A DNA stretch of 64,000 nt from a virus. This document shows, in pieces, positions 41,970 through 59,996 of the stretch. Where the stretch lies: positions 1 to 64,000 of the IMG/VR virus record IMGVR_UViG_3300032309_000911, one strand, 5' to 3'. The first letter of the stretch is position 1. Each line of letters starts with the position of its first letter. The position numbers were made by a program, and so were the translations under genes. The notes beneath the pieces were generated by a model. The model had not been told where the DNA came from. It made no database searches and worked only from the letters and a program-made list of their open reading frames with translations.

Positions 41970-43331
41970 ATGGCTTATACTATAATAAACACCACTGATA
42001 CACTAGAACAGATGCGAGTTAAGTTAAATAACTTGACTACTAATGATTTTGGTGATCCTTCAATTTTAGCTGGTGCAGGTATTACATCAACATCTATTAC
42101 AGGTGCTGTCGTAGAATTAGCTAATGTTGCATATTCTCAAGCTGGTTTTCGTATTGAAGATTCTACTTCTTCTTTTCAACAAATTGGTGCTGGTCAAACT
42201 TTAAGAGTTTTAGGAACATCAAATCAAATTAATGCTGTTGTAAGTGCTACAGATACTTTAACAATAAGTTTACCTAGTAACGTAACTATACCTAATAATT
42301 TAACAGCTAATGGTACATTGCACACATTGGGTACAATAGAAATTAGTGGAAATAATATTAGATCAACAGATTCTACAACTGTTAGAATTAATGATTCTTT
42401 AAATGTAAACGGTAGTATTTCAGCAACTTCTGTATCATCAACAGGCGCTGTTTCTGGTACAACTATAACAGGAACAGGTGCGGTTTCTGGTACAACTATT
42501 ACAGGTTCTTCAACAATACAAGGTACAGATTTAGTATTAACTTCAGGTGGAATAACTTTTGAAGGAGCAACCGATAACACATTTGAAACTACACTAGCGA
42601 TTACAGATCCAACGCAAGACAGAACAATTACAGTACCAAATATAACAGGTACTATTGTTACAACAGGAGATACAGGTACAGTTACTAGTACAATGATTGC
42701 TGATGGTACAATTGTAAATGCGGATATTGCTGATGGAACAATTAGAGGTGCCAAATTAAATGTATCTTCAGATAGTGTAACTTTTGCTAACGTAACTGCT
42801 ACTAATTTTACAGGAACAGCTTCAATAGCAACAACAGTTACTTTAAATGCGAATAATACGAATAATGAAACGGTTTATTTAACATTTTCAGATACCGCTA
42901 CAGGTAATCAAACTTTAGAAACGGATACAAGTTTATCTTATAATCCTTCAACAAATATATTATCTACAACAGCTACTCAAGCACAATATGCCGATTTAGC
43001 TGAGATTTATGATACAGATAAAAATTATGATATAGGTACAGTAGTTATGGTTGGCGGAAATAAAGAAGTTACAGAATGTTTTGTAGGTAAAAGAGCACTA
43101 GGTGTCATATCAGATAGACCTGCTTTTTTAATGAACTCTAAAGCAAAAGGTCAACCAGTTGCATTAAAAGGACGTGTTAAAGTAAAAGTTACAGGCGATG
43201 TTAAAAAAGGCGATGAATTAGTTGCAGGTAATGGTGGTTTTGCCACAACAATAAGTGAAGAATTTACAAAAGTATTTGCAATTGCTTTGGAAGATAATGA
43301 TAAAGGACTTATCGAGGCAATTATACTATAA
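41970..43331 (+). CDS. Tail fibre-like protein with C-terminal 'ADLAEIY' domain
   Basis: A 453-residue protein: N-terminal attachment module ('YTIINTTDTLEQMRVKLNNL'), Thr/Ser-rich beta-helix-like middle ('SGTTITGTGAVSGTTITGSS'), and a C-terminal domain starting 'QAQYADLAEIYDTDKNYDIG' with 'GKRALGVISDRPAFLMNSKA', a frequent C-terminal module of cyanophage fibre proteins. Likely structural. Ends just before the radical SAM locus. Confidence 0.8.
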   Translation: MAYTIINTTDTLEQMRVKLNNLTTNDFGDPSILAGAGITSTSITGAVVELANVAYSQAGFRIEDSTSSFQQIGAGQTLRVLGTSNQINAVVSATDTLTISLPSNVTIPNNLTANGTLHTLGTIEISGNNIRSTDSTTVRINDSLNVNGSISATSVSSTGAVSGTTITGTGAVSGTTITGSSTIQGTDLVLTSGGITFEGATDNTFETTLAITDPTQDRTITVPNITGTIVTTGDTGTVTSTMIADGTIVNADIADGTIRGAKLNVSSDSVTFANVTATNFTGTASIATTVTLNANNTNNETVYLTFSDTATGNQTLETDTSLSYNPSTNILSTTATQAQYADLAEIYDTDKNYDIGTVVMVGGNKEVTECFVGKRALGVISDRPAFLMNSKAKGQPVALKGRVKVKVTGDVKKGDELVAGNGGFATTISEEFTKVFAIALEDNDKGLIEAIIL

Positions 43332-43355: not shown

Positions 43356-43802
43356 ATGATTGATGCTTTAAATGATGAATTAATATCTTTCACAAGATAC
43401 GAAAATAATCAAATAATCTATATAGACAAAAACGGCAAAGATTACAAAGTTAAAGATGAAATAACTTATGGTAATTGGATTAAAAATTATAAAAATATTC
43501 CACATATAAAAGTTGAAGGATTAGAAGATAATAATTATCATCTTCAATTATTAAAACAATACAATTTGAATTTTAAAATGAAAAATGTGCACCTTTTTTA
43601 TAATCAGTTTGGCGGGTTTTCTTTTCCTGAACATTCAGATGATATAGATGTATTATTGTGTGTTATTAAAGGTGGTAAAAAAGTATATACGGATAATTAT
43701 CCTGTTTTGGTGAAAGAAGGACAAGCAATATCTATACCTAAAGGTGTCAAACATAGAGTTGAAAGTTTACCGTTTACTTGGGCATTAAGTATAGGATATT
43801 AA
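43356..43802 (+). CDS. Cupin/JmjC-like putative Fe(II) oxygenase
   Basis: A 148-residue protein. 'GGFSFPEHSDDIDVLLCVIK' provides H93-x-D95 and 'ISIPKGVKHRVESLPF' provides H133, the HxD...H metal triad of cupin-fold 2OG/Fe(II) enzymes, with the typical G-(Q)-A-I-x-I-P-x-G-V-x-H strand. It starts the modification locus and is followed 16 bases later by the first radical SAM gene. Substrate unknown; modification of a fibre residue is the contextual guess. Confidence 0.7.
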   Translation: MIDALNDELISFTRYENNQIIYIDKNGKDYKVKDEITYGNWIKNYKNIPHIKVEGLEDNNYHLQLLKQYNLNFKMKNVHLFYNQFGGFSFPEHSDDIDVLLCVIKGGKKVYTDNYPVLVKEGQAISIPKGVKHRVESLPFTWALSIGY

Positions 43803-43818
43803 GTATAGGATATAAAGA

Positions 43819-44856
43819 ATGAATTGGATGTTTTATATAAAGACAACTGAAACTTGTCAATTAAATTGCAAACATTGTTTCACTAGTGGTATTAATGGTA
43901 AAAAAATTTATTTTGATTATTTTAAAACAATAGATTTTATAAAAAGATTCAGACAATATTTTGATAGTAACGAAGATTCTATTCATTTTGAATTTCATGG
44001 GGGTGAACCTTTTTTAGCACCAGTATCTCACATGCAAAAAGTATATGATGAATGTAAAGATTTATGGAAAAATAGTACTTTTGGTATTACAACAAATTTA
44101 GTATTTAAATTAAAAGAAGAACACTATGAATTTATTAAGGGGCCTTTAAATAATCGTTTAGGTACAAGTTGGGATCCTAAAATAAGATTTGAAAATGATG
44201 CACAATATAATCTGTGGGAAAAAAACGTAAAAGATTTATTAAATAAAGGCGTTACAATAAAATTGTTTATCAGCGTAACTAAAGATACTATTAATATAGA
44301 ACCTATTAAACTATTAAAATGGATAAAACAATTAGGAGTACAAGAAATTTCTTTTGAAAGACTAACAGGTAATGGAAATGCAAAATTGCATCCTGAAATA
44401 TTCCCTGATAACATAGAACAGGATAAATGGTTTTTAAAAATGCACCATCAATCAAAAGAAAATAATTGTAGAAGTTGGTTTGATAATGAAACATTAGAAG
44501 TTATATACAGTAAGTTTGAAACAGGTTTTTTAAAAGGTGGTACTTTCTGTAGAGATTGTGAACAAAAGATTTTTACATTAAATGCTGATGGTACAATATC
44601 AGGTTGTCCAAATGCGGCGCCAGAGTTTCAATTTGGACACATAAATGACGATATTAAAAGTCTTATAAATAGTCCCAAAAGAATAGAAAACATCGCTTGT
44701 GAACGTGCAAGAAATCCTTTATGTTTTTCTTGTGAGGTTTTTGAGTTTTGTGGAGGTGATTGCCACCAACTTGCTTGGCAAGGTGATATATGTGGTGCAC
44801 CAAAAAGTTTAATGAAAGAGTTAAAATTAGGTATAAAATATGGTAACATTAACTAA
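43819..44856 (+). CDS. Radical SAM/SPASM protein 1, adjacent to the Cys-tail protein
   Basis: A 345-residue protein. 'TTETCQLNCKHCFTSG' holds the CxxxCxxC [4Fe-4S] site (C13, C17, C20) and 'FHGGEPFLAP' the GGE SAM-binding motif. The C-terminal SPASM part has 'GTFCRDCEQ', 'GTISGCPNAAP', 'NPLCFSCEVFEFCGGDC' and a last C before 'GAPK', enough to bind auxiliary Fe-S clusters. SPASM enzymes typically modify peptides (e.g. sactipeptide or sulfatase maturases). Its last 17 bases overlap the start of the CHxS-tailed protein, so enzyme and probable substrate are translationally coupled. Confidence 0.9.
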   Translation: MNWMFYIKTTETCQLNCKHCFTSGINGKKIYFDYFKTIDFIKRFRQYFDSNEDSIHFEFHGGEPFLAPVSHMQKVYDECKDLWKNSTFGITTNLVFKLKEEHYEFIKGPLNNRLGTSWDPKIRFENDAQYNLWEKNVKDLLNKGVTIKLFISVTKDTINIEPIKLLKWIKQLGVQEISFERLTGNGNAKLHPEIFPDNIEQDKWFLKMHHQSKENNCRSWFDNETLEVIYSKFETGFLKGGTFCRDCEQKIFTLNADGTISGCPNAAPEFQFGHINDDIKSLINSPKRIENIACERARNPLCFSCEVFEFCGGDCHQLAWQGDICGAPKSLMKELKLGIKYGNIN

Positions 44857-45412
44857 TCCAGTTACGCCGCAAAATATAGTAGATAGATTTAAAGATTTGG
44901 TTACAGATGTAGCTAATACAAGTATAATTTGGGGAACAGATAATAAACCATTTTCAGAAATGCCAGATGCTAATTACGCTGGTACAATATCAGGAACTAC
45001 TATTAATGTTACTGGTTCTAATATTGCTATTACAGGAGATTTAATAACAGCTTCTACAATTAAATCTGTATTAGAAACAGAAACAGCTCTATATACAAAT
45101 ATTAGACAACAAAGAGCTATACTAAATGTAACAGGTGGTGGAGGAAATACAGGATCGAGACCGACTCCAGGAATAATTTATGATCAAACAAATGTAGCTA
45201 ATTTATCTGTAGATAATAGAGCATCGTTAGGATCCATTTCTAGTTCAAATGTAGATGCGGGACAAATAATAGACGATTTAAATTTAGAGACATATTTTGG
45301 AAATTTAGCAACGGCTTATGATGCTGTTAGAACTACGGCCGTAACACAACAAATAGATGTATGTCATGCTAGTTGTCATAGTTCATGTCATGGATCAAGA
45401 GGAAGAAGATAA
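44840..45412 (+). CDS. Fibre-like protein with C-terminal (CHxS)3-RGRR tail, probable modification substrate
   Basis: A 190-residue protein. The N-terminal part ('NPVTPQNIVDRFKDLVTDVA', 'NTSIIWGTDNKPF') resembles marine phage fibre/tail proteins; the middle is beta-rich with a Gly linker. The last 16 residues are CHAS-CHSS-CHGS-RGRR: the only cysteines (C175, C179, C183) and the only histidines of the protein lie in this tail. Such a concentrated C-terminal core behind a long leader-like part, coupled to a radical SAM/SPASM gene, resembles RiPP precursors; the H-x-S spacing recalls His-Xaa-Ser (Hxs) systems. Metal binding or disulfides are alternatives. Confidence 0.75.
   Translation: MVTLTNPVTPQNIVDRFKDLVTDVANTSIIWGTDNKPFSEMPDANYAGTISGTTINVTGSNIAITGDLITASTIKSVLETETALYTNIRQQRAILNVTGGGGNTGSRPTPGIIYDQTNVANLSVDNRASLGSISSSNVDAGQIIDDLNLETYFGNLATAYDAVRTTAVTQQIDVCHASCHSSCHGSRGRR
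45362..45397 (+). repeat. Three 12-base coding repeats for Cys-His-x-Ser
   Basis: TGTCAT followed by two variable codons, three times in a row (TGT CAT GCT AGT, TGT CAT AGT TCA, TGT CAT GGA TCA). The Ser codon varies while the protein pattern is kept, suggesting selection on the peptide. Confidence 0.85.
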
Positions 45413-46104
45413 TGAATATAATTGAAACAATAGTTCCAATATCGATAGATAATTTAAAAAAACATTTTACGGACAAAGAAACATTTTATTTAATTGATTA
45501 TAAAAATAGTGAATTGAAAGGTAAAAAATTATTAACATATTTAAGTAATTTAGACTTACCTTCCGATATCAAAGAGCCTGATTTGGAATTAATAAAAGAA
45601 TATTTGCATAGCATTACTTTAGTTAATATTAATTCATTAGAAAACATTGTTATAGATATTCTTTTAGAATATAAAGGCATTTCTAAAACCAATAAGTATG
45701 AAACATTTATTAAAGAAAATAAAGATATAATTTCTTTATGGTCTGATAAGTTAGACAGTTTAAGTGTATTCAACATGTATATTGTAAATTCTGATGAATT
45801 TAAACAATATGCCAATTCTTTTATAAAAGATGATACTGCAAGTTTAGAAGGTGTTAATTTTGTAAGTTTATTAAAACAAGAAAGATTTTATCTATTCTAC
45901 AATAAACTAAATAGTAATATCAAATTCTATACTCATTATTTTAATGATTATATGTTTAGAGGTAAAAATCTTTATGAATTTTGGGCTACGTCCAAAAATC
46001 CTATGTTTTTATTAACTTGGGGAATAACACAAGGAAAAGGTAAAGATTATATAGAAGCTAAAATTAAAGATAAGGAAATTATAAAAAATGTTGCATTTAT
46101 TTAA
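45412..46104 (+). CDS. Unknown protein of the modification locus, 230 residues
   Basis: Start at 45412 (MNIIETIVPISIDNLKKHFT), sharing the A of the previous stop (TAATG). A soluble helical protein without Cys, signal or membrane segments; contains 'YMFRGKNLYEFWATSKNPMF' near the C-terminus. No family recognised. Because it is locked between the substrate-like gene and another unknown gene, it may be a peptide-recognition or chaperone-like partner (inference). Confidence 0.68.
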   Translation: MNIIETIVPISIDNLKKHFTDKETFYLIDYKNSELKGKKLLTYLSNLDLPSDIKEPDLELIKEYLHSITLVNINSLENIVIDILLEYKGISKTNKYETFIKENKDIISLWSDKLDSLSVFNMYIVNSDEFKQYANSFIKDDTASLEGVNFVSLLKQERFYLFYNKLNSNIKFYTHYFNDYMFRGKNLYEFWATSKNPMFLLTWGITQGKGKDYIEAKIKDKEIIKNVAFI

Positions 46105-47173
46105 TAAAACATATTTAGAATTTGATGATAAAATAGAATTAAATTTTGATCGAGTAATTATTTCAGATGTAAATGGTGTAAATATATTGGATTCTTTAGA
46201 TAAAGTTGTTCAAGGAAAATTATTAAAATATGGTAAAAATTTAGACAATTTTAATTTTGTTAATTTAATAACTGAAATAAATTCTTATGGACAATCATCT
46301 AACAAAAAATTAGTAATATATTGCGATAAGTTAAATTATATTAAATTCGCAACTAAATGGTTAAAAACAATATTGCCAAATTTAGATTTAAATAATTTTT
46401 CAAAATTAATAGAATTAACAATTTATAAAGAAAGAATAATTAGTAATTCTCAAATGCAATCAGTAATACCTGTAAAACAAGATATTTTATGGGAAGGATT
46501 AGGAGATATATCATCTTCATTTAATTCAATAACAGTTTCTAATGAAGATAGACAATCTATAAAAAATTTAAATTTAAAATATTCTTATGAATTTCTTTTA
46601 GCTGATCATTTTAGCGGGTCATCTAATTATACATCTTCACTTACAACAATAGTGCATTTATTTTTGCAAAGATGGTTTAAAGAGTTATTTAAAGATAATA
46701 GAGAAATGGTATTGTTAAATCTTTTAAATAAAAATTTTCAAACAGCATTAAGTTTTACAGAAAGTAATATTGATTTAACTAAATCAAATCCTATAACTGG
46801 AGTTTCTTCTTTACAATTTTATTCTGATGAAAATATTTGGTCTAAAGAAAACTCATGTAAAGTTGAAGGATTAACACAAATACAAATAGATGGTTTACGA
46901 AATTTAGTTAAAAAAATTTACGGTGATGTGGAAGGCATGGAAATAGACAACGCTGTGTTTGGTATGCTTGATTATTTAGAATATGCAGCCAAAACTTCTA
47001 TCACTACAGAAGAATTAAATACTATATTAAATTATGTTGTAACAAATCCATTTGATACTTGTTTAATACCAAAATTTGATTTTCAAAATGTAAACTTTGT
47101 TTTTGTACAACACCTTTTAAATTTAAAGAGAGATAATAACACAGAGGTACTTACAAAGTTTAGATTATTATAG
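46088..47173 (+). CDS. Unknown protein of the modification locus, 361 residues
   Basis: Overlaps the previous gene by 17 bases; AAGGAAAT lies about 10 bases upstream of the ATG. A soluble helical protein ('NLNLKYSYEFLLADHFSGSS', 'YGDVEGMEIDNAVFGMLDYL') with few cysteines (C104, C272, C337 region) and no recognisable motif. I cannot assign a fold. It precedes radical SAM protein 2 by seven bases. Confidence 0.68.
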   Translation: MLHLFNKTYLEFDDKIELNFDRVIISDVNGVNILDSLDKVVQGKLLKYGKNLDNFNFVNLITEINSYGQSSNKKLVIYCDKLNYIKFATKWLKTILPNLDLNNFSKLIELTIYKERIISNSQMQSVIPVKQDILWEGLGDISSSFNSITVSNEDRQSIKNLNLKYSYEFLLADHFSGSSNYTSSLTTIVHLFLQRWFKELFKDNREMVLLNLLNKNFQTALSFTESNIDLTKSNPITGVSSLQFYSDENIWSKENSCKVEGLTQIQIDGLRNLVKKIYGDVEGMEIDNAVFGMLDYLEYAAKTSITTEELNTILNYVVTNPFDTCLIPKFDFQNVNFVFVQHLLNLKRDNNTEVLTKFRLL

Positions 47174-47180
47174 GATTGCA

Positions 47181-48227
47181 ATGCGTGAATTTTTGATTGA
47201 TCCTAAAAGAGATCCTGAACAGGAATATACAATTCATTTATTTGAATTTTGTAATTTAAGTTGTGCTTTCTGTTGGCAAAATCATCAAGATAAAATAGGC
47301 ATAGACACGGTTCTTGATAAATTAGAACCTATTGAAAGATTTGTTAGTAAAGAATATAAAAATAAGATTACTCTTAATTTGATGGGTGGCGAAGTATTTG
47401 CGCCTAGTATTTATACTAAACAATTAAATGAAGCCTATAAACAATTATCTTTAGGCATTCAAAAAATTGCAGACAAATATAACAAACAATGTTCTTTAAA
47501 TTGGGTGTCAAATTTAGTTACTGATAAGTTAGATTTGATTGAAGATTTATTACAATACTCCAAAGACAATCATATTAAAGCACGTTTAACAACATCATAC
47601 GATCCTCGTGGCCGTTTTAATCCAAAACAATTCGAAGTGTTTAAAAAAAATGTAGATTATTTTAAAGATAGAGTAACGTGTTTTTCTTGTTTATTAACTA
47701 AACCAAATATAGAATATTATTTAACTGAGGGTGATGAATATTTTGATTATCTTTATAACAATGGTAAATATATTTACTTTGATTATTATATGCCTGATGA
47801 ACACGCTAAATTTAATATGCCAAGTGATGAATTACTTTTAAAATTCTTTAAACATTGTGTTGACAAATATCCTAATGTGCATCCTGTAAAAGATTGGATT
47901 TTTAATAAAAAAAATTACGCTTCATGTAGAGTTAGTAAATTGGTATTAGCTGATGGAACTTTATGTATGTGTGGCAACTTGGTACAAGACAAAAAATCAT
48001 TAAGTATGTACAAATCGCCTATTAAACGTATGAACAATAATGAAATTGAAAACAAATTTTTAGAAAAATATAATTGTGCTTCTTGTGAGTTTTTGGATAG
48101 GTGTACATTAGGATGTTTTATGAATCACGATTACAAATATAAGGAGGAGCTGAATGAGTGTGTCTATAAACTTACGCACAGATATATCGAAGATGTACGA
48201 GTACAACGAGGATACATCGCTTATTAA
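47181..48227 (+). CDS. Radical SAM/SPASM-type protein 2
   Basis: A 348-residue protein. 'LFEFCNLSCAFCWQNH' gives C24, C28, C31; 'NLMGGEVFAP' is the GGE motif. The C-terminus has 'YASCRVSK', 'GTLCMCGNL', 'NCASCEFLDRCTLGCFMNHD' and a later Cys, fitting SPASM/twitch auxiliary clusters. Overlaps the following gene by 74 bases, an unusually long overlap, with the next gene's strong Shine-Dalgarno inside the coding sequence. Likely acts on a peptide or protein substrate. Confidence 0.88.
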   Translation: MREFLIDPKRDPEQEYTIHLFEFCNLSCAFCWQNHQDKIGIDTVLDKLEPIERFVSKEYKNKITLNLMGGEVFAPSIYTKQLNEAYKQLSLGIQKIADKYNKQCSLNWVSNLVTDKLDLIEDLLQYSKDNHIKARLTTSYDPRGRFNPKQFEVFKKNVDYFKDRVTCFSCLLTKPNIEYYLTEGDEYFDYLYNNGKYIYFDYYMPDEHAKFNMPSDELLLKFFKHCVDKYPNVHPVKDWIFNKKNYASCRVSKLVLADGTLCMCGNLVQDKKSLSMYKSPIKRMNNNEIENKFLEKYNCASCEFLDRCTLGCFMNHDYKYKEELNECVYKLTHRYIEDVRVQRGYIAY

Positions 48228-48726
48228 TATCAAATTACCTAAAAATATTGATGTTAAATTGGATAATCTTCCTGTAAAACAACCATATATTCCTAGAATA
48301 TGTGGTAGACAAGCTCACATGTTTATTTGGTGGGGAACTAAAGAAACCGACCCGGACATTTATGAACAAACTTTAAAAAATAAAAATGAAGAACAATGGA
48401 TAACTTGTGATGAAATTTGGAAATTAGAAAAAGGTATTTCCTCAATTCATATATATGACACTGAAATTATTGTAGGATGTGTTAAATATTCTGGTGTTTT
48501 GAAAAAAAAAACTATACATGAAAGAAAAAAATTTATTAGACAAATGTGGAATGATATAGTAAGTATGTTTAAAGATAAAAAAATTATTGTTCCTGTAGGT
48601 TCATATTTAGAATATATAAGTTTGTCAATAAATTTAACAAAAATACAACACGAACCTTATCAAAAAAGATTTTTAAATCCATTAGGTTTTAAAAAACAAG
48701 GAAATTATTGGATAAGATGGACCTAA
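48154..48726 (+). CDS. Unknown protein, weakly acetyltransferase-like
   Basis: A 190-residue protein whose start is set by AAGGAGG at 48141-48147 inside the radical SAM 2 gene. 'HMFIWWGTKETDPDIYEQTL' and the C-terminal 'KKIIVPVGSYLEYISLSI' with 'LNPLGFKKQGNYWIRW' recall GNAT-like phage proteins, but a clear acetyl-CoA loop (Q/RxxGxG/A) is missing. Tight overlap with both neighbours indicates a joint function with the radical SAM enzymes. Confidence 0.6.
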   Translation: MSVSINLRTDISKMYEYNEDTSLINIKLPKNIDVKLDNLPVKQPYIPRICGRQAHMFIWWGTKETDPDIYEQTLKNKNEEQWITCDEIWKLEKGISSIHIYDTEIIVGCVKYSGVLKKKTIHERKKFIRQMWNDIVSMFKDKKIIVPVGSYLEYISLSINLTKIQHEPYQKRFLNPLGFKKQGNYWIRWT

Positions 48727-49808
48727 TAATTAAACCAACAGAATTGTGTAATTTTAAATGTACTTTTTGTTCTAGCACTAAAATAGCGGAACACAAAAAA
48801 GATGTATTATCGCTTGAACAAATATTTACATTTTTAAAAAGATTTCCTCAAACAAGAACAATTATAGTTAATGGAGGCGATCCTTTAATGATGGAACCAG
48901 AATACTATTGGAAAATTATTGAATGGTTGGATAAAAACGATTACGATACATCTATTGCATTAACTACAAATTTATGGCCATTCTATAAAAAACCAGACAA
49001 ATGGGTTAATTTATTTAACAATGAAAGAGTTGGTGTAACTACATCTTTTCAATATGGAGGTGGCCGTCTTAAAGGAGATTTAACAGAATTTACAGAAGAA
49101 GATTTTTGGAAATGTTCAAATGCTATGTTAGAATATTGTGGTTATAGGCCAGATTTTATATCTGTTATTGTTCCTGAAAACGAAAAAGATGCAATTAAAA
49201 ATGTAGAACTTGCAAAACGTATGAGTGAAGATATTGTACCTGATGGAACAATGCACAATTTTACACGTCATAGTAAGACTGGTGTGGAATGTAAATTAAA
49301 TTATGCAATGTCTAGTGGCGATCAAGGTAAACCTTATTTGTTAAGTAAGATATATCAGATATACGTAGAAATATGGAAACGTGGTCTTGCACCTTGGGAA
49401 TTTAATACAAAACAAATGATACAAAGATTAAACAATGATAGAACATCTTGTCCTCAAAATCGCAAATGCGATACTGGAATACGTGCATTAAATCCTAGCG
49501 GAGATTATTATTCTTGTGGTGCTTTTGGTGATGATAAAGACAAAACCATAGATTTTGATAGAGAAATGAAAGGAGAGTTTTTTACTCCTTTACAAGATGA
49601 TTTAAATTTGCTTAGTATGAAGAAATCTTGTTTTACTTGTCCTATGTTTAATATATGTAATGGTTGCAGAAAAACAATTAAGGATTTTAAACATCACGGA
49701 GTTGTAGAAGAACATTGCAAACTTATGAAAACCATAGCACCGGACATAATTAAATCTAATGGACTAAATATTGAAGTAACACCTTATATAGATGAAAGTG
49801 TATTATGA
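48717..49808 (+). CDS. Radical SAM/SPASM protein 3
   Basis: Start at 48717 (MDLIIKPTELCNFKCTFC), in preference to a TTG at 48708. C11, C15, C18 form the CxxxCxxC site; 'IVNGGDPLMM' is the GGE-equivalent. The C-terminus shows 'SCPQNRKCDTG', 'YYSCGAFGD', 'SCFTCPMFNICNGCRK' and a last Cys in 'EEHCKLM', a SPASM-like set. Overlaps the gene before by 10 and the 2OG gene after by 4 bases. Confidence 0.88.
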   Translation: MDLIIKPTELCNFKCTFCSSTKIAEHKKDVLSLEQIFTFLKRFPQTRTIIVNGGDPLMMEPEYYWKIIEWLDKNDYDTSIALTTNLWPFYKKPDKWVNLFNNERVGVTTSFQYGGGRLKGDLTEFTEEDFWKCSNAMLEYCGYRPDFISVIVPENEKDAIKNVELAKRMSEDIVPDGTMHNFTRHSKTGVECKLNYAMSSGDQGKPYLLSKIYQIYVEIWKRGLAPWEFNTKQMIQRLNNDRTSCPQNRKCDTGIRALNPSGDYYSCGAFGDDKDKTIDFDREMKGEFFTPLQDDLNLLSMKKSCFTCPMFNICNGCRKTIKDFKHHGVVEEHCKLMKTIAPDIIKSNGLNIEVTPYIDESVL

Positions 49809-50326
49809 TTAATGATTTTTTAACAAAAGGTTTTATTATATTAAATGATAAAGATCCTTTTAAATTTATAGATATCAATGATATACAATGGACTGATGCC
49901 GGTCATGTAGGTTTGCAAGTAGTTATTAAAGAAGAAAAAATACAAAATGAACTATTAACAACTCAAAAATATCTAGGTGAGAAATACGTAAAACAAATAG
50001 ATTCGAATTACAAACTTGCTAATAAAATAGATTTAGTAAATGGCATGGATGAGGCTACTTTGGTTTGGCATAACGATTTAATAGAAGGACCAAATCTTTG
50101 CATTTTAACTTATTTTGATGATATGGATGTTGATATTGGAGGTGCTATTTGTTTTAGAAAAACAGAAACAAAAGAAGATTTAATAAAACATTACCCTAAA
50201 AAAAATGATATTCTTATTATGAATCAAAGTTTAAAATATGAACATATAGTTACACCTCTGAAATTAAAACTTCCTAGACGAGTGGCCAGTTTTAATTATT
50301 ATATAGATGAAAGGTTGACAAAATGA
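49805..50326 (+). CDS. 2OG-Fe(II) oxygenase-like protein
   Basis: A 173-residue protein. 'ATLVWHNDLIEGPNLCILTY' supplies H89-x-D91 and 'LKYEHIVTPLKLKLPRRVAS' supplies H147 and the 2-oxoglutarate-binding R158/R159, matching the prolyl-4-hydroxylase-like layout. 'IGGAICFRKT' is the usual strand between them. A hydroxylase in a radical SAM cluster suggests multi-step tailoring of one substrate. ATGA overlaps at both ends. Confidence 0.8.
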   Translation: MINDFLTKGFIILNDKDPFKFIDINDIQWTDAGHVGLQVVIKEEKIQNELLTTQKYLGEKYVKQIDSNYKLANKIDLVNGMDEATLVWHNDLIEGPNLCILTYFDDMDVDIGGAICFRKTETKEDLIKHYPKKNDILIMNQSLKYEHIVTPLKLKLPRRVASFNYYIDERLTK

Positions 50327-50901
50327 AAGAAGGATTTAATAATTTGTGGCCTACTATCATATTAAAAGATATTATAAAAGATAAACCATTATTAGATGAT
50401 GTAACAAATTATACATTAACAAAATATGGGTTAGATAATAAGATATCAGCAGATATTAAATATCAAAATCTATTTGATGATAATTATTATAACAAGTTTA
50501 GATACAACATAGTAATACCTTTTTTTGAAAAATATTTGCAAGAAAATGTAGGTATTAGTTTGAAAGATAAAAAATATACTATGAGAGCATGGTTAACGGG
50601 TTATGGTGTTTCTTATTCTATGCCAAAACACAATCATTCAGGTTCTCATTTGAGTGCGGTATTTTATTTACTATCCGAAGATAATCATCTAGGAGGATCT
50701 TTAGTAATAAATGACCCTCGTTTTAATGCAAATAGAGGTTATACGCCTGATTTTAAAAAATGGTTTGAAAAAGAAATGTTTAATCCAAAAACAGGAGATA
50801 TTTTAATATTTCCAAGTTTTACTTATCATAGTGTTGACACTTATTATGGAAAATTAAGATTAGCTATGCCTGTTGATCTAATATTATATAATGATGAATA
50901 A
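50323..50901 (+). CDS. 2OG-Fe(II) oxygenase, family-5 type
   Basis: A 192-residue protein with 'RAWLTGYGVSYSMPKHNHSG' followed by 'SHLSAVFYLLS', 'GGSLVINDPRF', and 'TGDILIFPSFTYHSVDTY' with 'KLRLAMPVDL'. This order (H103/H105, H169, R179) matches the putative 2OG-FeII_Oxy_5 family (PF13759 type), widespread in marine phages. Substrate unknown. It overlaps the fourth radical SAM gene by 11 bases. Confidence 0.85.
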   Translation: MKEGFNNLWPTIILKDIIKDKPLLDDVTNYTLTKYGLDNKISADIKYQNLFDDNYYNKFRYNIVIPFFEKYLQENVGISLKDKKYTMRAWLTGYGVSYSMPKHNHSGSHLSAVFYLLSEDNHLGGSLVINDPRFNANRGYTPDFKKWFEKEMFNPKTGDILIFPSFTYHSVDTYYGKLRLAMPVDLILYNDE

Positions 50902-51820
50902 TATAACAGTATCTATAAATCCAAGTTATTTTTGTAATTTTAGATGTAATTTTTGTTATCTCGCAACTGAACAATTAGGTGATCAAAAAAAAATATCATT
51001 ATCAATACTAGATAAAAGATTAAAAGAAATTAGTAAAGTTAGAAATATAGAATGGGTTGATCTATATGGTGGAGAAATAGGCGCATTAAAAAAGGATTAT
51101 TTTTATGGATTAAAAGATGTAGTAAGAAAATATTACAAAGATAAAATTAATATAATAACCAATTATTCTATGTTACACGAAGGATTTTTTAAAGACGATT
51201 TTTATTTAAGTGTAAGTTATGATTTCGAAGCAAGAGAAAAATCCGATTTAGTTTATAATAATATGTTTCAGAGTACGGTGCCTATTGCAGTATTAATACT
51301 TGCAAGTCAAAAGGTAATAGAAATGAACGTAGATGATATGATAAACAAATTAAATCTTTGTTCTAGTATAGAAAGCGTGGAAATTAAACCATATTCAATA
51401 AATCAAGCAAATGAACAATATGTTACACATAAAGATTTTGAATTGTTTGTGCAAAAATGGATTGAAAGTCCTGTAATAAAAAAATTTGATTTTATAAATG
51501 AAGGAAAAATAATTCAAAGTTTAAATAAAGAATACAACGCATTTTCAAACAATCATGTTTATATAACTCCTAATGGAAATTTTGCTGTATTAGAATTTGA
51601 TAAAAATGATAAAGAGTATTTTTTAGAATTAAGTTCTATTAAAGAATATATAAAATGGGCAGAACAAGAACCAATAAAAAATATTTCAGATATATGTAGA
51701 AAATGTAAATATTACGGTCATTGTTTAACTGAACATTATCGTTATGTAAAAGATTTAAATAACAGTTGTAATGGATATAAAGGATTATTAGAATATTATG
51801 GAAAAAGAATGGAAAATTAG
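50891..51820 (+). CDS. Radical SAM protein 4 with reduced auxiliary-cluster region
   Basis: A 309-residue protein (a second ATG at 50894 is equally possible). 'NPSYFCNFRCNFCYLATE' is the CxxxCxxC site and 'DLYGGEIGAL' the GGE motif. The C-terminus has only 'ICRKCKYYGHCLTEH' and 'NSCNGYKG', fewer Cys than a full SPASM domain. Shortest of the four; could use one auxiliary cluster. Overlaps the next gene by 23 bases. Confidence 0.87.
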   Translation: MMNNITVSINPSYFCNFRCNFCYLATEQLGDQKKISLSILDKRLKEISKVRNIEWVDLYGGEIGALKKDYFYGLKDVVRKYYKDKINIITNYSMLHEGFFKDDFYLSVSYDFEAREKSDLVYNNMFQSTVPIAVLILASQKVIEMNVDDMINKLNLCSSIESVEIKPYSINQANEQYVTHKDFELFVQKWIESPVIKKFDFINEGKIIQSLNKEYNAFSNNHVYITPNGNFAVLEFDKNDKEYFLELSSIKEYIKWAEQEPIKNISDICRKCKYYGHCLTEHYRYVKDLNNSCNGYKGLLEYYGKRMEN

Positions 51821-52193
51821 ACAAGCATTATATCACAAATTAAATAGTGATTATACTGACGATCTAAAAAAGATAAAAATAGAAATAAGTAGCGATATTG
51901 TTGAAAATTGTATAAGATATTTTTATAATACCGATATGCCTTTTATATACCCGTCAAAAAGTTATGTGGTGGCCATTTGTTATGCCTATTGGTTATCAAA
52001 AGACTTTGGTGAAGATTTTTATGAATTGTTAAACGATAAAGATTTGTTATATGGAAACGACCCATATTTTAAAACATATGAAGAAGATACTAAAACGTAT
52101 GATGAAATATTAAAAAAGGTTATGCCTCTTGATGAAAATAAAGGTATAGTGCCAGACATAAAGAATTATTATATGGCTGAATTTTTTATATAA
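51798..52193 (+). CDS. Conserved marine-phage hypothetical at the end of the locus
   Basis: A 131-residue protein with 'YPSKSYVVAICYAYWLSKDF' and 'LLNDKDLLYGNDPYFKTYEE', a text I recall from several T4-like marine phages, always of unknown function. Starts within the radical SAM 4 gene (23-base overlap), so it is part of the same operon and may be a regular partner of it. Confidence 0.72.
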   Translation: MEKEWKIRQALYHKLNSDYTDDLKKIKIEISSDIVENCIRYFYNTDMPFIYPSKSYVVAICYAYWLSKDFGEDFYELLNDKDLLYGNDPYFKTYEEDTKTYDEILKKVMPLDENKGIVPDIKNYYMAEFFI

Positions 52194-52441: not shown

Positions 52442-52789
52442 ATGGCAGGTATAGCAAACTTATCAATAGACGCCGGCGCTACATTTACAAGTGATGTATT
52501 AGTACAGAATGATGATGGTACTGCTTTTAATTTAACAGGTTATACAGCTCAAGGTAAAATGTCTCAAGGATATTCTGCCACATATCAAAGAGTATATTTT
52601 GATATTACTATCTATCAAGCTGATGGAATAGTAACAATAGGTTTAGATCCTGCAACAACTGCTCAGTTAGAGGATGGCCGTTGGGTTTATGATGTAGAAA
52701 TAACTAATGTAGCCGATAGTACAGTAACACGTGTTGTTGAAGGTATTATTACAGTTTATCCAGGTGTAGTTTCTACTTACAATCCTTAA
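52442..52789 (+). CDS. Small beta-rich structural protein
   Basis: A 115-residue protein: 'NLSIDAGATFTSDVLVQNDD' and 'GTAFNLTGYTAQGKM', 'EDGRWVYDVEITNVADSTVT' and 'RVVEGIITVYPG'. This Ig-like/BppU-N-like beta pattern is common in marine phage virion proteins. It likely decorates fibre or baseplate. Convergent with the glycosyltransferase gene, with a 4-base overlap of 3' ends and no visible terminator. Confidence 0.72.
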   Translation: MAGIANLSIDAGATFTSDVLVQNDDGTAFNLTGYTAQGKMSQGYSATYQRVYFDITIYQADGIVTIGLDPATTAQLEDGRWVYDVEITNVADSTVTRVVEGIITVYPGVVSTYNP

Positions 52790-54117
52790 TCGAAAAATTT
52801 ATTTGTAGGTATTTTTATTTCTACATTGTTTTTAGAAAAATGATAATCTCCATCTGGGCCATTATCACAAAAAGGTCCTGAAATTAATCTAAAACCTAAA
52901 TCTTCAACATACTTAATTACTTCATCTCTTAAAGGTGCGCCTTTGTTATATTCTACTATTTGTAATTCTAATATTAAATCTTTACAATGTTTTAAAGCTT
53001 CTTTAGATCCTTTTAAAACATCCAATTCAGCACCTTGTACATCTATTTTTATTAAGTCCGGCATAGGCAGATTTCTTGAACTTATAATACTATCTAAAGT
53101 TTTAGTTTTATATAATTTTTTATTACTTTCATTATACAATCTATTAGATTCAGAACTGATTTGTTCGTTTTCTTTATAATAACTATTTCCACCAGGATGA
53201 TAAGTGTTTTTATAAAAATTAACTTCTTTATCTGTTCTATCACTTAGTACACCTATATGGTATTGTAAATTGTTTTCTTTGTATAAAAATTCACATTCTG
53301 ACATTGCTTCAAAAACAACATACTCAGCATTTGGCCATATTGTTTTAGCTTCACTTGTCCAATGTAGTACACAAGCACCTATATCGTAAATTACTTTTGG
53401 TGATATGTTTAAACTTTTCAAATAATCTACGTGTATTTGAGGTAACAATCTTTTAGTTGATAAATCTTTTAATCTATCAGTTATATTAATTTCTTTTTTA
53501 TTTACAGTTGGAGTATTAGGTGTACTTTCCACTTTAAAAATCGTATTACCTATATGTTCACAATGTACTGTTGTATCAGCAAATATTTCAAAACCTTTTG
53601 CTTTAACTTTTCTACAAAAATCAACATCTTCTGATATTGTATTTTTATGATCTATTGCTGAATGATAAACAAAATGAGGATAAGGTATCGATCTAAAAAC
53701 TTCTCCTTTAATTAATACACAACCCATTCCACAAGCTGCTAATTCAACTAATGGAGTATCCTTTATTTTTTCAAATGGTATATTTGAACAACCACCTCTA
53801 TCATTGTGTTCATAAACTTCTAATATATGTTCGTTTTCTTTTCTTTGTATGTAAAGACCTGATATCATGTCTTTATTATGACTTAAAAGTTTTTTAAGTG
53901 TATCTGTTGAAAAAGAAATATCACTATCTACTGAAAACAAATAATCATAATGAGTTGCCCAATGTGCTATTAAATTTCTTATTTGATCTATTTGATAACC
54001 AAAGAAAAATTGTAATTCTGTAGTATAACCATCGGGAATTTCAAGGTCATAAATGGCCTTCATTGTTTTTGTTTCAACGTATTTGTTTGTTGGTATAGCT
54101 ATTAATATTTTTTTCAT
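52786..54117 (-). CDS. Fusion of GT-A glycosyltransferase-like and FkbM methyltransferase domains
   Basis: A 443-residue protein. Residues ~1-200: GT-A-like with 'YLFSVDSDISFSTDTL' (D-x-D metal motif), 'AACGMGCVLIKGEVF' and 'EDVDFCRKVKAKGFEI'. Residues ~235-430: FkbM-type SAM methyltransferase with 'VIYDIGACVLHWTSEA' and 'LIKIDVQGAELDVLKGSKEA'. The two parts probably add and O-methylate a sugar. Overlaps the upstream glycosyltransferase gene by 4 bases, forming a two-gene minus-strand operon beside the fibre genes. Confidence 0.85.
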   Translation of the reverse strand: MKKILIAIPTNKYVETKTMKAIYDLEIPDGYTTELQFFFGYQIDQIRNLIAHWATHYDYLFSVDSDISFSTDTLKKLLSHNKDMISGLYIQRKENEHILEVYEHNDRGGCSNIPFEKIKDTPLVELAACGMGCVLIKGEVFRSIPYPHFVYHSAIDHKNTISEDVDFCRKVKAKGFEIFADTTVHCEHIGNTIFKVESTPNTPTVNKKEINITDRLKDLSTKRLLPQIHVDYLKSLNISPKVIYDIGACVLHWTSEAKTIWPNAEYVVFEAMSECEFLYKENNLQYHIGVLSDRTDKEVNFYKNTYHPGGNSYYKENEQISSESNRLYNESNKKLYKTKTLDSIISSRNLPMPDLIKIDVQGAELDVLKGSKEALKHCKDLILELQIVEYNKGAPLRDEVIKYVEDLGFRLISGPFCDNGPDGDYHFSKNNVEIKIPTNKFFD

Positions 54118-56141
54118 TGATTTAATATCCTGTTTGCGTTTTTAGTTTGTTCTTCAGAGTTTACTTTATAATCATTTAAAGCGTGTGTGTCATTATAGTT
54201 ATAAACAATGTCTTGTACTACTTTAATACTTTCAGGTTGACATTTTTCTATTAGAGAATAGAAAATAGAACCATCGCCTCCTGCTTTATACCATTTTCCA
54301 TTTTCATCTTTAAACATACTTTCATCAATATTTTCTAAAAGATATGCTTTAAATGTTCTTAAATGAGTATAAGGCATGTTCCAATTAAATTTGTATTGTC
54401 TATATTTCTTTTCTTTTTTAATTTGTTCTGGATAAGGTTGAGACACTAAAGGTATATTATCTACCATTGACCAACATGAACCATAACTAAACTCAGTTGT
54501 ACCATCATAAATATTATTATAAAAATGAAATATTTGATTATCGTTTACTAAAGAATCATCACCATCTAAAAACATTACAATATCATCACGTTCACAAAAT
54601 TTGTTTATTGATTCTATTTGATTTCTTACAGCGCCTTTATTTTCTTTATTTCTTATTACTTTAATCTTATCACTTTCATATTTTTTAGCCAACTCATAAG
54701 TATTATCTGTAGAACAATCATCAATAACAACCATTAAATAATTATCATAATCTTGTGTAATAACCGATTCAATACATCTTTCAATATATTTAGAAGCATT
54801 ATAAGTAGGTGAAATTATAACAATCTTTTGTTCTTTATTTCTAGGTAAATAATTTTCTTCATAATTATTAAATCTTCTACCAAATACTTTTTTAACCCTA
54901 GAATTAATATGACTTACTTCTTTATATTCTTCTTTTGAAAGATATGCGCCTAATTTTTTATAGATGTGTTGTTTCCATTGTAATGCAATTGAATCCCAAC
55001 CAACAATACCTTTTATGATATTACAAGAATACATTTTTTGTTGATGTAAGTATCTATTAGCATTGGCCTGTAAAACCATATTTACAAATTTATTTTCTTG
55101 TTCTTTTTTATCAATAAACTTAAAAAGACTATTTGGTTCTATTGCATAATCCATTAAATAGCATGCCTGTTCAACTGCTGTTTCTTCTAAAGCTCCAAAA
55201 CGAGTTGTAATTAAAGGAGTGTTATATGCTAAAGATTCTAAAGTTGAAATACCAAATGTTTCAGGAAAGGCACCAGGAAATAACATAAAGCTGGCTTTTG
55301 CCATTAATTCTGCTATTTCTGATTGTTTAATTATTCCTGTAAATTCGATATCTAACTTTTTATATTTTTCATCAGCAACTAATTGTCTCCATTTTTTTTC
55401 TTGTTCATCTGGTTCAGCATTTTCTCTAAATCTATAATATCCACCAATTACTTTTAATTTGGCTTCAGGTATTTGTTGTTTGATTCTTTCCCACATATTT
55501 TCAACTAGAGGCAACATACCTTTTGTAACAGAGGCATTATAAACATATAAATGAGGATCTTTTTGTCTTATGTCTATTTCATCTTTGTAAAGTACGATAC
55601 CATTACGTGTCATAAACATATGAGATTTAAGTACTTCAAAATTTCTTCTTTTACCATGATCACACGTAGTTACATAAGAAGTATGAAAATCTGAAAGGGT
55701 AAATATTTCATCCATATCTTTATGAACAATCATATCTTCTAATAAATGATCGCCTTTAGCAAAAGTATCGTGCATCCACATTGCTTTAAATTTAGCATTT
55801 TGTTTTATTTTAGAATATCTTTGAGGTTTAAAATTTTCAAATTGATTATATAAGTGTGGTGGTAAAAACGGTATTACTGTTCTCGAAGATATAACTACAT
55901 CAAAACTAAAATCATTTTTATAATCTAATATAGTGTGATCTATATATTGAACATTATCAAATATTCCTTCTTTTGATTCTTTATCTATACAATTATTAAA
56001 TACGGTTACTTTAAAATTTTTTTTAGCTAATTCTTTTGCAAGTAAAATTACGGCTGATTCTGATCCTCCTAAACCTCTTTTGTTTAAGGTATCGCCGTCA
56101 TAAGTCAATCCAATAATGTCAATAATAGCTATAGAAATCAT
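54114..56141 (-). CDS. Two-domain glycosyltransferase (GT4-like plus GT2)
   Basis: A 675-residue protein. N-terminal ~400 residues: GT-B fold with 'GGSESAVILLAKELAKKNFK', 'YNASVTKGMLPLVENMWERI' and 'MLFPGAFPETFGISTLESLA', the GT4 donor-site E-x7-E type. C-terminal ~225 residues: GT2 with 'VIISPTYNASKYIERCIESV', 'VVIDDCSTDNTYELAKKYES' and 'IVMFLDGDDSLV' (D-x-D). It could add two sugars in succession. The likely acceptors are the neighbouring fibre proteins or a host surface glycan. Confidence 0.87.
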   Translation of the reverse strand: MISIAIIDIIGLTYDGDTLNKRGLGGSESAVILLAKELAKKNFKVTVFNNCIDKESKEGIFDNVQYIDHTILDYKNDFSFDVVISSRTVIPFLPPHLYNQFENFKPQRYSKIKQNAKFKAMWMHDTFAKGDHLLEDMIVHKDMDEIFTLSDFHTSYVTTCDHGKRRNFEVLKSHMFMTRNGIVLYKDEIDIRQKDPHLYVYNASVTKGMLPLVENMWERIKQQIPEAKLKVIGGYYRFRENAEPDEQEKKWRQLVADEKYKKLDIEFTGIIKQSEIAELMAKASFMLFPGAFPETFGISTLESLAYNTPLITTRFGALEETAVEQACYLMDYAIEPNSLFKFIDKKEQENKFVNMVLQANANRYLHQQKMYSCNIIKGIVGWDSIALQWKQHIYKKLGAYLSKEEYKEVSHINSRVKKVFGRRFNNYEENYLPRNKEQKIVIISPTYNASKYIERCIESVITQDYDNYLMVVIDDCSTDNTYELAKKYESDKIKVIRNKENKGAVRNQIESINKFCERDDIVMFLDGDDSLVNDNQIFHFYNNIYDGTTEFSYGSCWSMVDNIPLVSQPYPEQIKKEKKYRQYKFNWNMPYTHLRTFKAYLLENIDESMFKDENGKWYKAGGDGSIFYSLIEKCQPESIKVVQDIVYNYNDTHALNDYKVNSEEQTKNANRILNQ

Positions 56142-56212: not shown

Positions 56213-59200
56213 ATGCCAGTAATAAAAGGTCCTACACAACAAGTAAGAGTAACATTACCATCTAAAGGTGGGCCAGGTTATACAGGTTCACAAGGCCCAA
56301 TAGGTTATACAGGTTCTGCCGGAACAGGTGGTGGTGGAGGAGGATACACAGGCAGTCAAGGTTACACAGGTTCTCAAGGCTACACAGGATCTTTAGGTTA
56401 TACAGGATCTATAGGTTATACAGGTTCTGCTGGTTCAACAGGATTTACCGGTTCAAAAGGAGATACAGGATCATTAGGTTATACAGGATCAGCAGGTGTT
56501 GGTTATACAGGTTCTGCTGGCGTAGGATTCACAGGTTCAAAAGGAGATTCAGGCTCTACAGGATACACAGGATCGGTGGGTGTTGGTTATACAGGTTCTG
56601 CTGGTGTAGGATTTACAGGTTCAGCTGGTGTAGGATTTACAGGTTCAGCTGGCTCAGCTGGTGCTACAGGTTACACAGGTTCAGCTGGTTCAACAGGAGC
56701 TACAGGTTATACTGGTTCAGCCGGCGTTACAGGATTTACCGGTTCTGTTGGTTCAGCAGGCGCTACAGGATTTACAGGATCTGCTGGAGCTGGATTTACC
56801 GGATCAGCTGGCTCTACAGGATTTACCGGTTCAAAAGGTGATATAGGATATACAGGTTCAACAGGAGCTGGTTATACAGGTTCGGCTGGCTCTACAGGAT
56901 TTACCGGTTCAAAAGGTGATACAGGATTTACAGGTTCAACAGGAGCTGGTTATACAGGTTCGGCTGGCGCTACAGGATTTACCGGTTCAAAAGGTGATAC
57001 AGGATTTACCGGTTCAACAGGAGCTGGTTATACAGGTTCAGCAGGTACTAATGGATATACAGGATCAAAAGGAGATTTAGGATTTACAGGATCTGCCGGT
57101 GCTGGATTTACCGGTTCAGCTGGCGCTACAGGATTTACAGGTTCTGCTGGTTCAGATGGTGCTACAGGATTTACAGGTTCAGCAGGAGCTGGTTATACAG
57201 GTTCGGCTGGCGCTACAGGATTTACAGGTTCTGCTGGCTCAGCTGGTGCTACAGGTTACACAGGTTCAAAAGGTGCTGACGGTATAATTGGTGTTGATGG
57301 TTATACTGGTAGTCAAGGTTATACAGGTTCAGCTGGCTCAGCAGGAGCAACAGGTTTTACAGGATCAAAAGGTGATCAAGGCACACAAGGTTTTACAGGA
57401 TCAGCAGGTGTTGGTTATACAGGTTCAGCAGGTATTAATGGATATACAGGATCAAAAGGAGATTTAGGATTTACAGGATCTGCCGGTGCTGATGGAGATA
57501 TTTACCATACAACATCAACTACAAATTTAAATCTTTCTACTTACGCTCTTACTGATACTATTACATTAACAACAGTAGATTTAGGATTAGACTATTCACC
57601 ACAACAAACAATTATAATTGCTTCAACAGCAACTCCTACAAATCATATACATGCTAAAGTTTTAACTTACAATGTAGGTACAGGTGTTTTAACTGCTGAA
57701 GTTACTAATATAGATAACGCCGCTAACAGTTCTTTAAGTTCTTGGGAAATTAATTTAGATGGTGCTGTAGGTATTAGAGGTTATACGGGATCAAAAGGCG
57801 ATGTAGGATATGTTGGTTCAAAAGGTGATATAGGATATACAGGCTCTAAAGGTGATATAGGATATACCGGTTCAAAAGGAGATTTAGGTTATACAGGATC
57901 TTTAGGTTATACCGGATCAGAAGGAAATTTAGACGTAACTACAGCTGCTACTCCTCCTTCAAGTGCTCAATATGGAGATGTTTGGATTGATGAATCAACA
58001 GGCGTACAATATTTTTATTATACAGATGGAGATACTGATCAATGGGTAGAATTTTCAAACGTAGGATTAAAAGGTTATACTGGTTCACAAGGTAATATAG
58101 GATATACAGGTTCTGCTGGAACTATAGGTTACACAGGTTCAGCTGGAATAGGATATACAGGATCGCAAGGTAATATAGGATATACAGGTTCTGCTGGAAC
58201 TATAGGTTATACAGGTTCAGCCGGAATAGGATATACAGGTTCTGCTGGAACTATAGGTTATACAGGTTCTGTTGGTTCACAAGGTTCTTTAGGATATACA
58301 GGTTCAATAGGTGCTCAGGGTAATATTGGTTATACAGGCTCTGTAGGTTCTACAGGTTTTACAGGATCGGCAGGAGCTACAGGTTTTACAGGCTCACTAG
58401 GAAATATTGGATTTACAGGTTCTGCTGGTTCAGCAGGCTCAACAGGTGCTACAGGTTTTACAGGTTCTTTAGGAAATATTGGATATACAGGCTCTGCAGG
58501 AGCTGGTTACACAGGCTCACAAGGTGTTATAGGATATACAGGTTCAGCTGGTGCAGGTGGCAGTGGACCATTTGCCGTTTGTAATACATCAAACATTGTA
58601 TCTACCGGCGCTGGCTTATGTACAGGAACTGGCGGTACTGGTACACATAACTTTTTTGCTGGCGAGTGTGCTGGTGCATGTAATACAACAGGTGAACGTA
58701 ATATTTTTATAGGTAAATATGCTGGCCGTTGTAATAGAGGTGGATACTTAAATACATTTTTAGGAAATGATGCAGGACGTTCTAATACTACAGGATCTCA
58801 AAATACATTTATAGGTTATGGTGCTGGTTGTTGCAATACTACCGGTAGTAATAATTTTTATGTTGGTACATTAGTCGGTCAATATGCTACTACATCAAGT
58901 CATAATATTTTTATAGGAGATCAAGCTGGTAAAGAATTAAGAACTGGCTCTTATAATTTTGTTTTCGGAAGATTTGCTGGGAAAAATTTAAACACTGCAT
59001 GTGATAATATTTTTGTAGGTCGCCGTGCAGGTGAATGTTCTACAGGTTCCGGTAATATATTTTTAGGTTCTCAGGCTGGATGTAGATCTGGAACGACCAG
59101 TGGAAACTTTTTTGCAGGAACTAGTGCAGGTTGGTATAATACTACAGGTTCTAATAATTTAATTCTTGGACAAGCTGCAGGTTGTGTTAACACCGTAGGT

Positions 59201-59995: not shown

Positions 59996-59996
59996 A

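Follow-up and report, generated by a model that had tools for sequence, protein, structure and literature searches.

The window analysed here, a stretch of 64,000 nucleotides, belongs to a viral record of 86.5 kb from a T4-like phage. After the genes for baseplate wedge proteins comes a variable region that includes tail-fibre-like genes, one of which adjoins, on the upstream side, a cassette composed of four radical-SAM enzymes (rS1 to rS4), a cupin, two 2OG-Fe(II) oxygenase-like proteins and further proteins with no assigned function. The gene for the protein under study, named A, lies between rS1 and u45409. The features of the region are as follows:

41970–43331, plus strand: tail-fibre-like protein whose C-terminus resembles an intramolecular chaperone (Peptidase_G2, E 2.1e-5, marginally below the cut-off; phrog_19602, tail fiber)
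43356–43802, plus strand: cupin-like protein, 148 aa (PF07883, E 6.5e-6, marginally below the cut-off)
43819–44856, plus strand: rS1, radical-SAM/SPASM protein, 345 aa (phrog_1802, E 1.3e-68; SPASM TIGR04085, 34.5 bits, cut-off 27)
44840–45412, plus strand: protein A, 190 aa (Cys/His-free body, residues 1–174; C-terminal tag, residues 175–190)
45362–45409, plus strand: tag (CHxS)3-RGRR (CHxS units 45362–45397; RGRR 45398–45409)
45412–46104, plus strand: u45409, 230 aa (phrog_20767)
46088–47173, plus strand: u46088, 361 aa (recurrent in rS1 loci)
47181–48227, plus strand: rS2, radical-SAM protein, 348 aa (phrog_1802, E 6.2e-44; CxxxCxxC)
48154–48726, plus strand: u48154, 190 aa, open reading frame within the cassette
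48708–49808, plus strand: rS3, radical-SAM protein, 366 aa (PF04055, 36.4 bits, over the cut-off; phrog_1802)
49805–50326, plus strand: og1, 2OG-Fe(II) oxygenase-like protein, 173 aa (PF13640, E 7.5e-5, under the cut-off)
50323–50901, plus strand: og2, 2OG-Fe(II) oxygenase, 192 aa (PF13759, 43.1 bits, over the cut-off; phrog_81)
50891–51820, plus strand: rS4, radical-SAM protein, 309 aa (phrog_1802, E 7.5e-28; CxxxCxxC)
51798–52193, plus strand: u51798, 131 aa (phrog_20737), recurrent cassette member

The start of A overlaps the 3' end of rS1 by 17 nt, and its stop codon (45410–45412) overlaps the start of u45409 (TAATG). All four radical-SAM proteins carry a CxxxCxxC motif near the N-terminus, at residues 13, 24, 14 and 15 of rS1 to rS4, respectively; with a PF04055 cut-off of 29.5, rS3 scores above it (36.4), and rS2 (27.0) and rS4 (29.4) fall just under. 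A scan for promoters and terminators gave results no better than those obtained on shuffled sequences.

Translation of the open reading frame 44840–45412 ends in ...QQIDV-CHAS-CHSS-CHGS-RGRR-stop, with the single units at 45362–45373, 45374–45385 and 45386–45397, in agreement with the original prediction of three CHxS units and RGRR at the extreme C-terminus. The body was likewise correctly described as lacking Cys and His (0 of each in the first 174 residues), and the Ser codon does differ between the units (AGT, TCA, TCA), the ground on which a slippage event had been doubted. A slippage origin of the repeat is ruled out by 227 distinct tagged proteins in which C, H and R are constant and the x residues vary. 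Chance is ruled out as well, both by the expectation across the open reading frames of the window (about 6e-16 occurrences) and by the comparison of internal matches with C-terminal loci elsewhere, reported below.

A search of viral metagenomes for the C-terminal CHxS motif, as had been proposed, showed that the tag recurs widely. Specifically, at least 119 viral stretches in an IMG/VR scan matched a degenerate DNA pattern for CHxSCHxSRGRR and, among the matches listed, 158 of 158 translated tags ended exactly at the stop codon. A scan for CH..CH..CH..RxRR with a different Arg codon found 81 stretches, nearly all of them C-terminal. When 275 viral loci were considered, fetched via the tag pattern or via a neighbouring enzyme, the tag stood at the exact end of the open reading frame in 259, and the motif was internal just once among open reading frames of at least 60 aa, in a repetitive frame.

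BLAST groups the 227 unique tagged proteins into 12 clusters, and the bodies are low in Cys (0.34% vs 1.54%). An alignment of 66 homologues of A has a mean column identity of 25% and, apart from the three C, three H and three R of the tag, none of its columns is invariant. Homologues that keep the body and lose the tail had been named as contrary evidence; what we found is an invariant tail on a diverging body. The PHROGs comparison gave the same picture: only residues 162–190 of A match, to the C-terminus of phrog_35144, the family of FLC6 gp72 ('unknown function'), so that gp72 matches end to end, whereas the window protein matches with its last 29 residues (the tag) and not with its body. 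We conclude that the CHxS tail is a conserved C-terminal tag.

The number of units varies and reaches four in locus L227 (8105–8878). Doubled cores of 3+3 CHxx units are present in L259 (7832–8515) and L260 (7956–8660), these three being jumbo-phage tags. Together with the HxS repeats of the Bdellovibrionota locus L405, this variation in the units indicates core-like behaviour of the tag.

The association between tag and enzymes was assayed in both directions. In the reverse test, viral loci were fetched with the rS1 alignment alone, taking the best-scoring 80 of 348 relatives. The tag was present in 75 of the 75 testable loci; in the other five the sequence ends less than 250 nt from rS1. All 75 tags have the three C-H pairs and R-x-R-R, and the fourth unit position is Ser in 73, 63 and 64 of them for units 1, 2 and 3, respectively. 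Among the 50 rS1 loci whose downstream sequence extends for 6.9 kb or more, u45409 follows the tagged gene in all 50, rS2 and the cupin are each found in 49, and u46088 in 48; rS3, rS4 and the oxygenases are undercounted in this set, where the flanks end. In the forward test, a radical-SAM gene lay within the analysed stretch at 154 of 198 tag loci; for the remaining tag loci, rS1 was found elsewhere in the record in 31 of 40, the nine without it being records of 5.6 to 39 kb.

Two arrangements were observed. In the first, the order is cupin-rS1-A-u45409-...; in the second, tandem tagged proteins of about 130 aa follow a tail-fibre-like gene, and the enzymes lie kilobases away on the other strand. 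The association, being both adjacent and distant, thus does not rest on adjacency alone. In addition, a scan of bacterial genomes, with internal motif matches as control, found cassette genes beside 0 of 26 internal matches versus 12 of 16 C-terminal loci (Fisher p = 1.6e-7). All together, these data indicate that, genetically, the tag cannot be separated from radical-SAM/SPASM enzymes.

The original prediction had offered a modified core peptide, a metal-binding tail or a disulfide anchor, and the strict enzyme linkage, a connection that this prediction had not made, makes the first the best supported. In the other two, the tail would hold metal (iron, copper, zinc) or form disulfides with no enzymatic rebuilding, and the radical-SAM enzymes would act elsewhere. 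The three invariant Cys-His pairs fit such a tail, and Cys-free bodies would prevent wrong disulfides; however, the strict co-occurrence with rS1 is left unexplained, and the L405 tag, with one Cys and four HxS units, fits poorly, so that we regard this explanation as improbable. Metal binding after modification is compatible with the enzyme-substrate explanation. On the evidence of sequence and gene neighbourhood, it is likely that the tag is the substrate ('core') of the surrounding radical-SAM enzymes.

In radical-SAM RiPPs (ranthipeptides/PapB, sactipeptides, darobactin/dynobactin-type and CXXX-repeat peptides), the enzymes are encoded beside a short repeated Cys-containing substrate. The same is seen here with radical-SAM/SPASM enzymes, and the RiPP arrangement of a ribosomal precursor beside putative modifying enzymes was found in every testable locus of the reverse test. 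Of the weak profile matches obtained with rS1 and rS3, the best are to PapB and DynA. Unlike those systems, the cassette enzymes score below every cut-off of the curated peptide-maturase families, and far below (55.4 bits against 340 for the PapB ranthipeptide maturase profile NF047865); the substrate is the C-terminus of a 130–360 aa, probably structural, protein; several enzymes and oxygenases occur together; and the carriers are mainly phages. The cassette yielded neither an identifiable leader nor a RiPP recognition element. The AlphaFold model of u45409 (pLDDT 92) matched nothing in a fold search against the PDB (best E 1.1), and this protein is therefore not established as a known RiPP recognition domain.

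Enzymes resembling peptide maturases and core-like repeats of variable unit number would also be expected of a strict RiPP, in which the tag would be modified, cut off and released, the free peptide acting as bacteriocin, metallophore or signal, with R-x-R-R as a follower or protease site. Against it, no recurrent protease or exporter was seen in the cassettes examined. RGRR had been proposed as a recognition site for a subtilisin-like protease encoded at 59997. This protein is a real subtilase (PF00082), but within the limited flanks it has no relative at any other tag locus, and its processing of RGRR is not supported. Moreover, the conserved folded body and the virion-protein cluster of phage Atu_ph07 (PMC6102473) favour a protein kept whole. 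Release of a free peptide is accordingly unlikely. In the window, the subtilase gene directly follows that of a 1260-aa collagen-repeat protein (the pair spanning 56213–61655); collagen-type relatives were found at 12 other loci and subtilase relatives at none.

The AlphaFold model of A has a mean pLDDT of 88.7, with a confident body and a tag of low confidence. The predicted fold resembles that of a 296-aa protein of Atu_ph07, equal in length to gp170, and of several other viral proteins, which indicates a common fold for some of the sequence clusters. Three BFVD entries of 504–660 aa from Myoviridae sp. ctijX18 (A0A8S5USJ8, A0A8S5USJ7 and A0A8S5USV2) also match it. A fold search of the model against the PDB gave no match, and no known adhesin or receptor-binding domain was found for the window protein in Pfam and the PDB. 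At L003 (4201–5569), the N-terminus of A is fused to Gly_rich_2 (PF21722) in a 308-aa open reading frame, and the remainder of A with the tag forms a separate one of 140 aa; the fusion is confined to this split version. The split form, a natural domain swap belonging to one lineage, occurs also in L051, L110, L310–L312 and L314.

An invariant tag on differing bodies is what a recognition signal would look like, and the tag might then only dock the enzymes, the modified residues lying in another part of A or in a fibre protein encoded nearby. Yet the body offers, in the alignment of 66 homologues, no invariant residue as a possible target, and the CHxS unit shows the variation in number and period that is typical of a core. 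We give little credit to this explanation, and retain the tag itself as the probable substrate.

The cassette is found again in marine phages of the T4-like type. Relatives of rS1 with 40–52% identity are encoded directly upstream of a tag-ending gene in isolated jumbo phages, namely Atu_ph07 (Agrobacterium), Phosso (Sinorhizobium), FLC6, FLC8 and SURPRISE13/S13 (Burkholderia) and pPa_SNUABM_DT01 (Pseudomonas), where the tagged genes are annotated 'hypothetical protein'. These isolates were retrieved through rS1, not through A: tblastn of A and of its 25-aa tail against isolated phages returned nothing, the low-complexity filter probably masking the tail, and a tandem-type tagged protein had no match among the isolates either. 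In FLC6, two adjacent dihydrofolate-reductase genes, gp77 and gp78, lie amid the radical-SAM genes of the cassette (L121, 18319–19532).

For Atu_ph07, virion proteomics by ESI-MS/MS delimited a virion-protein cluster 'CDS 170-215' (PMC6102473). The tagged protein of this phage, whose C-terminal peptide ends ...VDFCHSSCHASCHNSR, is gp170, the first gene of that cluster, and the numbering of the record agrees with the paper for gp198, gp204 and gp215. From the cluster boundary, we infer that gp170 itself is present in Atu_ph07 virions, and this cluster underlies the reading of A as a virion protein. Overall, a place for A among virion or adhesion proteins is more likely than not.

Across 84,980 species genomes, a scan found the C-terminal tag in Bdellovibrionota and in phage-like contigs; the contigs outside Bdellovibrionota look like phage on account of the shared cassette. 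rS1 is encoded in 16 of 291 sampled Bdellovibrionota genomes, once on a 4.15-Mb contig, and no phage genes were recognised in the Bdellovibrionota cassette stretches examined. In the tree built for rS1, one well-supported set unites 15 of 16 labelled Bdellovibrionota rows with a few viral sequences, a mixture that points to exchange of the cassette between phages and these bacteria. Beside several of the Bdellovibrionota cassettes lies a prepilin-like protein that carries a Peptidase_S74 chaperone domain (L383, 13956–15143; L384, 6655–7692; L399, 9683–10783). These prepilin-like proteins are also neighbours of a conserved protein ending in GRHWVK.

The Bdellovibrionota tags include the variants CHSACHDNCHSSRGRR, YCHGNFPPPCHGSRGRR, CHSNHCSHSNHGSRGRR and CHSSHSSHSSHSSRGRR. 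The last is a plain His-Xaa-Ser repeat, which suggests that the enzymes read H-x-S rather than Cys alone. Such a repeat recalls the Hxs system, in which the His-x-Ser repeat protein HxsA is encoded with the radical-SAM maturases HxsB and HxsC. Here too a repeated-motif protein is encoded with at least two radical-SAM enzymes, and in L405 the tag is simply an HxS repeat; in contrast to Hxs, the unit is mostly CHxS with a period of four, RxRR closes both the tag and the protein, and about four radical-SAM enzymes are present. Membership of the Hxs system is ruled out by the profile scores. Specifically, the HxsA profile TIGR03979 did not match the window protein, gave 16 bits for the L405 tag against a cut-off of 121.65 and exceeded its cut-off in 0 of 59 Bdellovibrionota genomes, and the maturase profiles gave 44.2 against 370 for rS1 (HxsB, TIGR03978) and 32.5 against 267.9 for rS3 (HxsC, TIGR03977). 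Despite this mismatch, the CHxS tag system may work by analogy with Hxs.

Three observations place A in an attachment context: the tail-fibre-like genes upstream, the Gly_rich_2 fusion and the S74 prepilin-like proteins near the Bdellovibrionota cassettes. Bdellovibrio bacteriovorus is known to handle its prey by means of phage-like fibres, many of them with S74 domains (PMC10769870). Like phage tail adhesins and these MAT fibres, the tagged gene adjoins fibre genes with Peptidase_G2 or S74 chaperone domains; unlike them, A has no Pfam or PDB domain, and the passages of PMC10769870 considered here describe no such tag on MAT fibres.

The explanation that we favour on balance is that the tag is modified by the cassette and that the product stays on A and has a role in attachment. 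In this scheme, A would be made as a folded, Cys-poor body with a flexible C-terminal tag, whose Cys, His and Ser residues rS1 to rS4, with u45409 and u46088, would rebuild or crosslink, assisted in many genomes by the 2OG-Fe(II) oxygenases; R-x-R-R would act as a recognition or handle element. The presence of four radical-SAM enzymes and oxygenases suggests that modifications of several kinds are made, not just a single crosslink repeatedly. In contrast to an ordinary RiPP, the product would probably not be cut free. A would be incorporated into the virion close to the tail fibres or, in Bdellovibrionota, into an adhesion structure, and would serve attachment to Gram-negative cells. Since the invariant tag is almost always accompanied by the radical-SAM set, these phages probably build a chemically modified tip on a tail protein. 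More tentatively, and with the odds somewhat against so detailed a picture, the exposed C-terminus could bear a prosthetic tip of crosslinked Cys-His-Ser units, possibly loaded with metal, that acts as a RiPP-like receptor ligand on the virus particle. Such a tip, if real, would be made by a dedicated radical-SAM cassette common to contractile-tailed phages and predatory bacteria.

In the open-access literature, we found no report of the CHxS tag or of a substrate for phage radical-SAM genes, and a phage adhesin with a modified tip is of a kind not described in the papers found. Phage host-recognition regions have been reported to contain radical-SAM genes as an odd cassette lacking a substrate, namely in pelagimyophages (PMC7029224), in Burkholderia phage S13 (PMC11898562), whose receptor is the flagella according to the same paper, and in Aeromonas phage 332-Vera, in which their number is termed 'highly unusual' (PMC12390700). 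These papers and PMC8066314 treat the genes only as unusual or accessory, and the term 'radical SAM' is absent from a review of jumbo phages (PMC7824862). The tag supplies a probable substrate for these orphan cassettes, at hundreds of viral loci. If our explanation is true, phages use radical chemistry to extend an adhesin past the twenty amino acids, a device also present in bacteria that prey on bacteria.

Finally, the fibre region of the window also contains, on the minus strand, genes for an FkbM-type methyltransferase and a two-domain glycosyltransferase (52786–56141).
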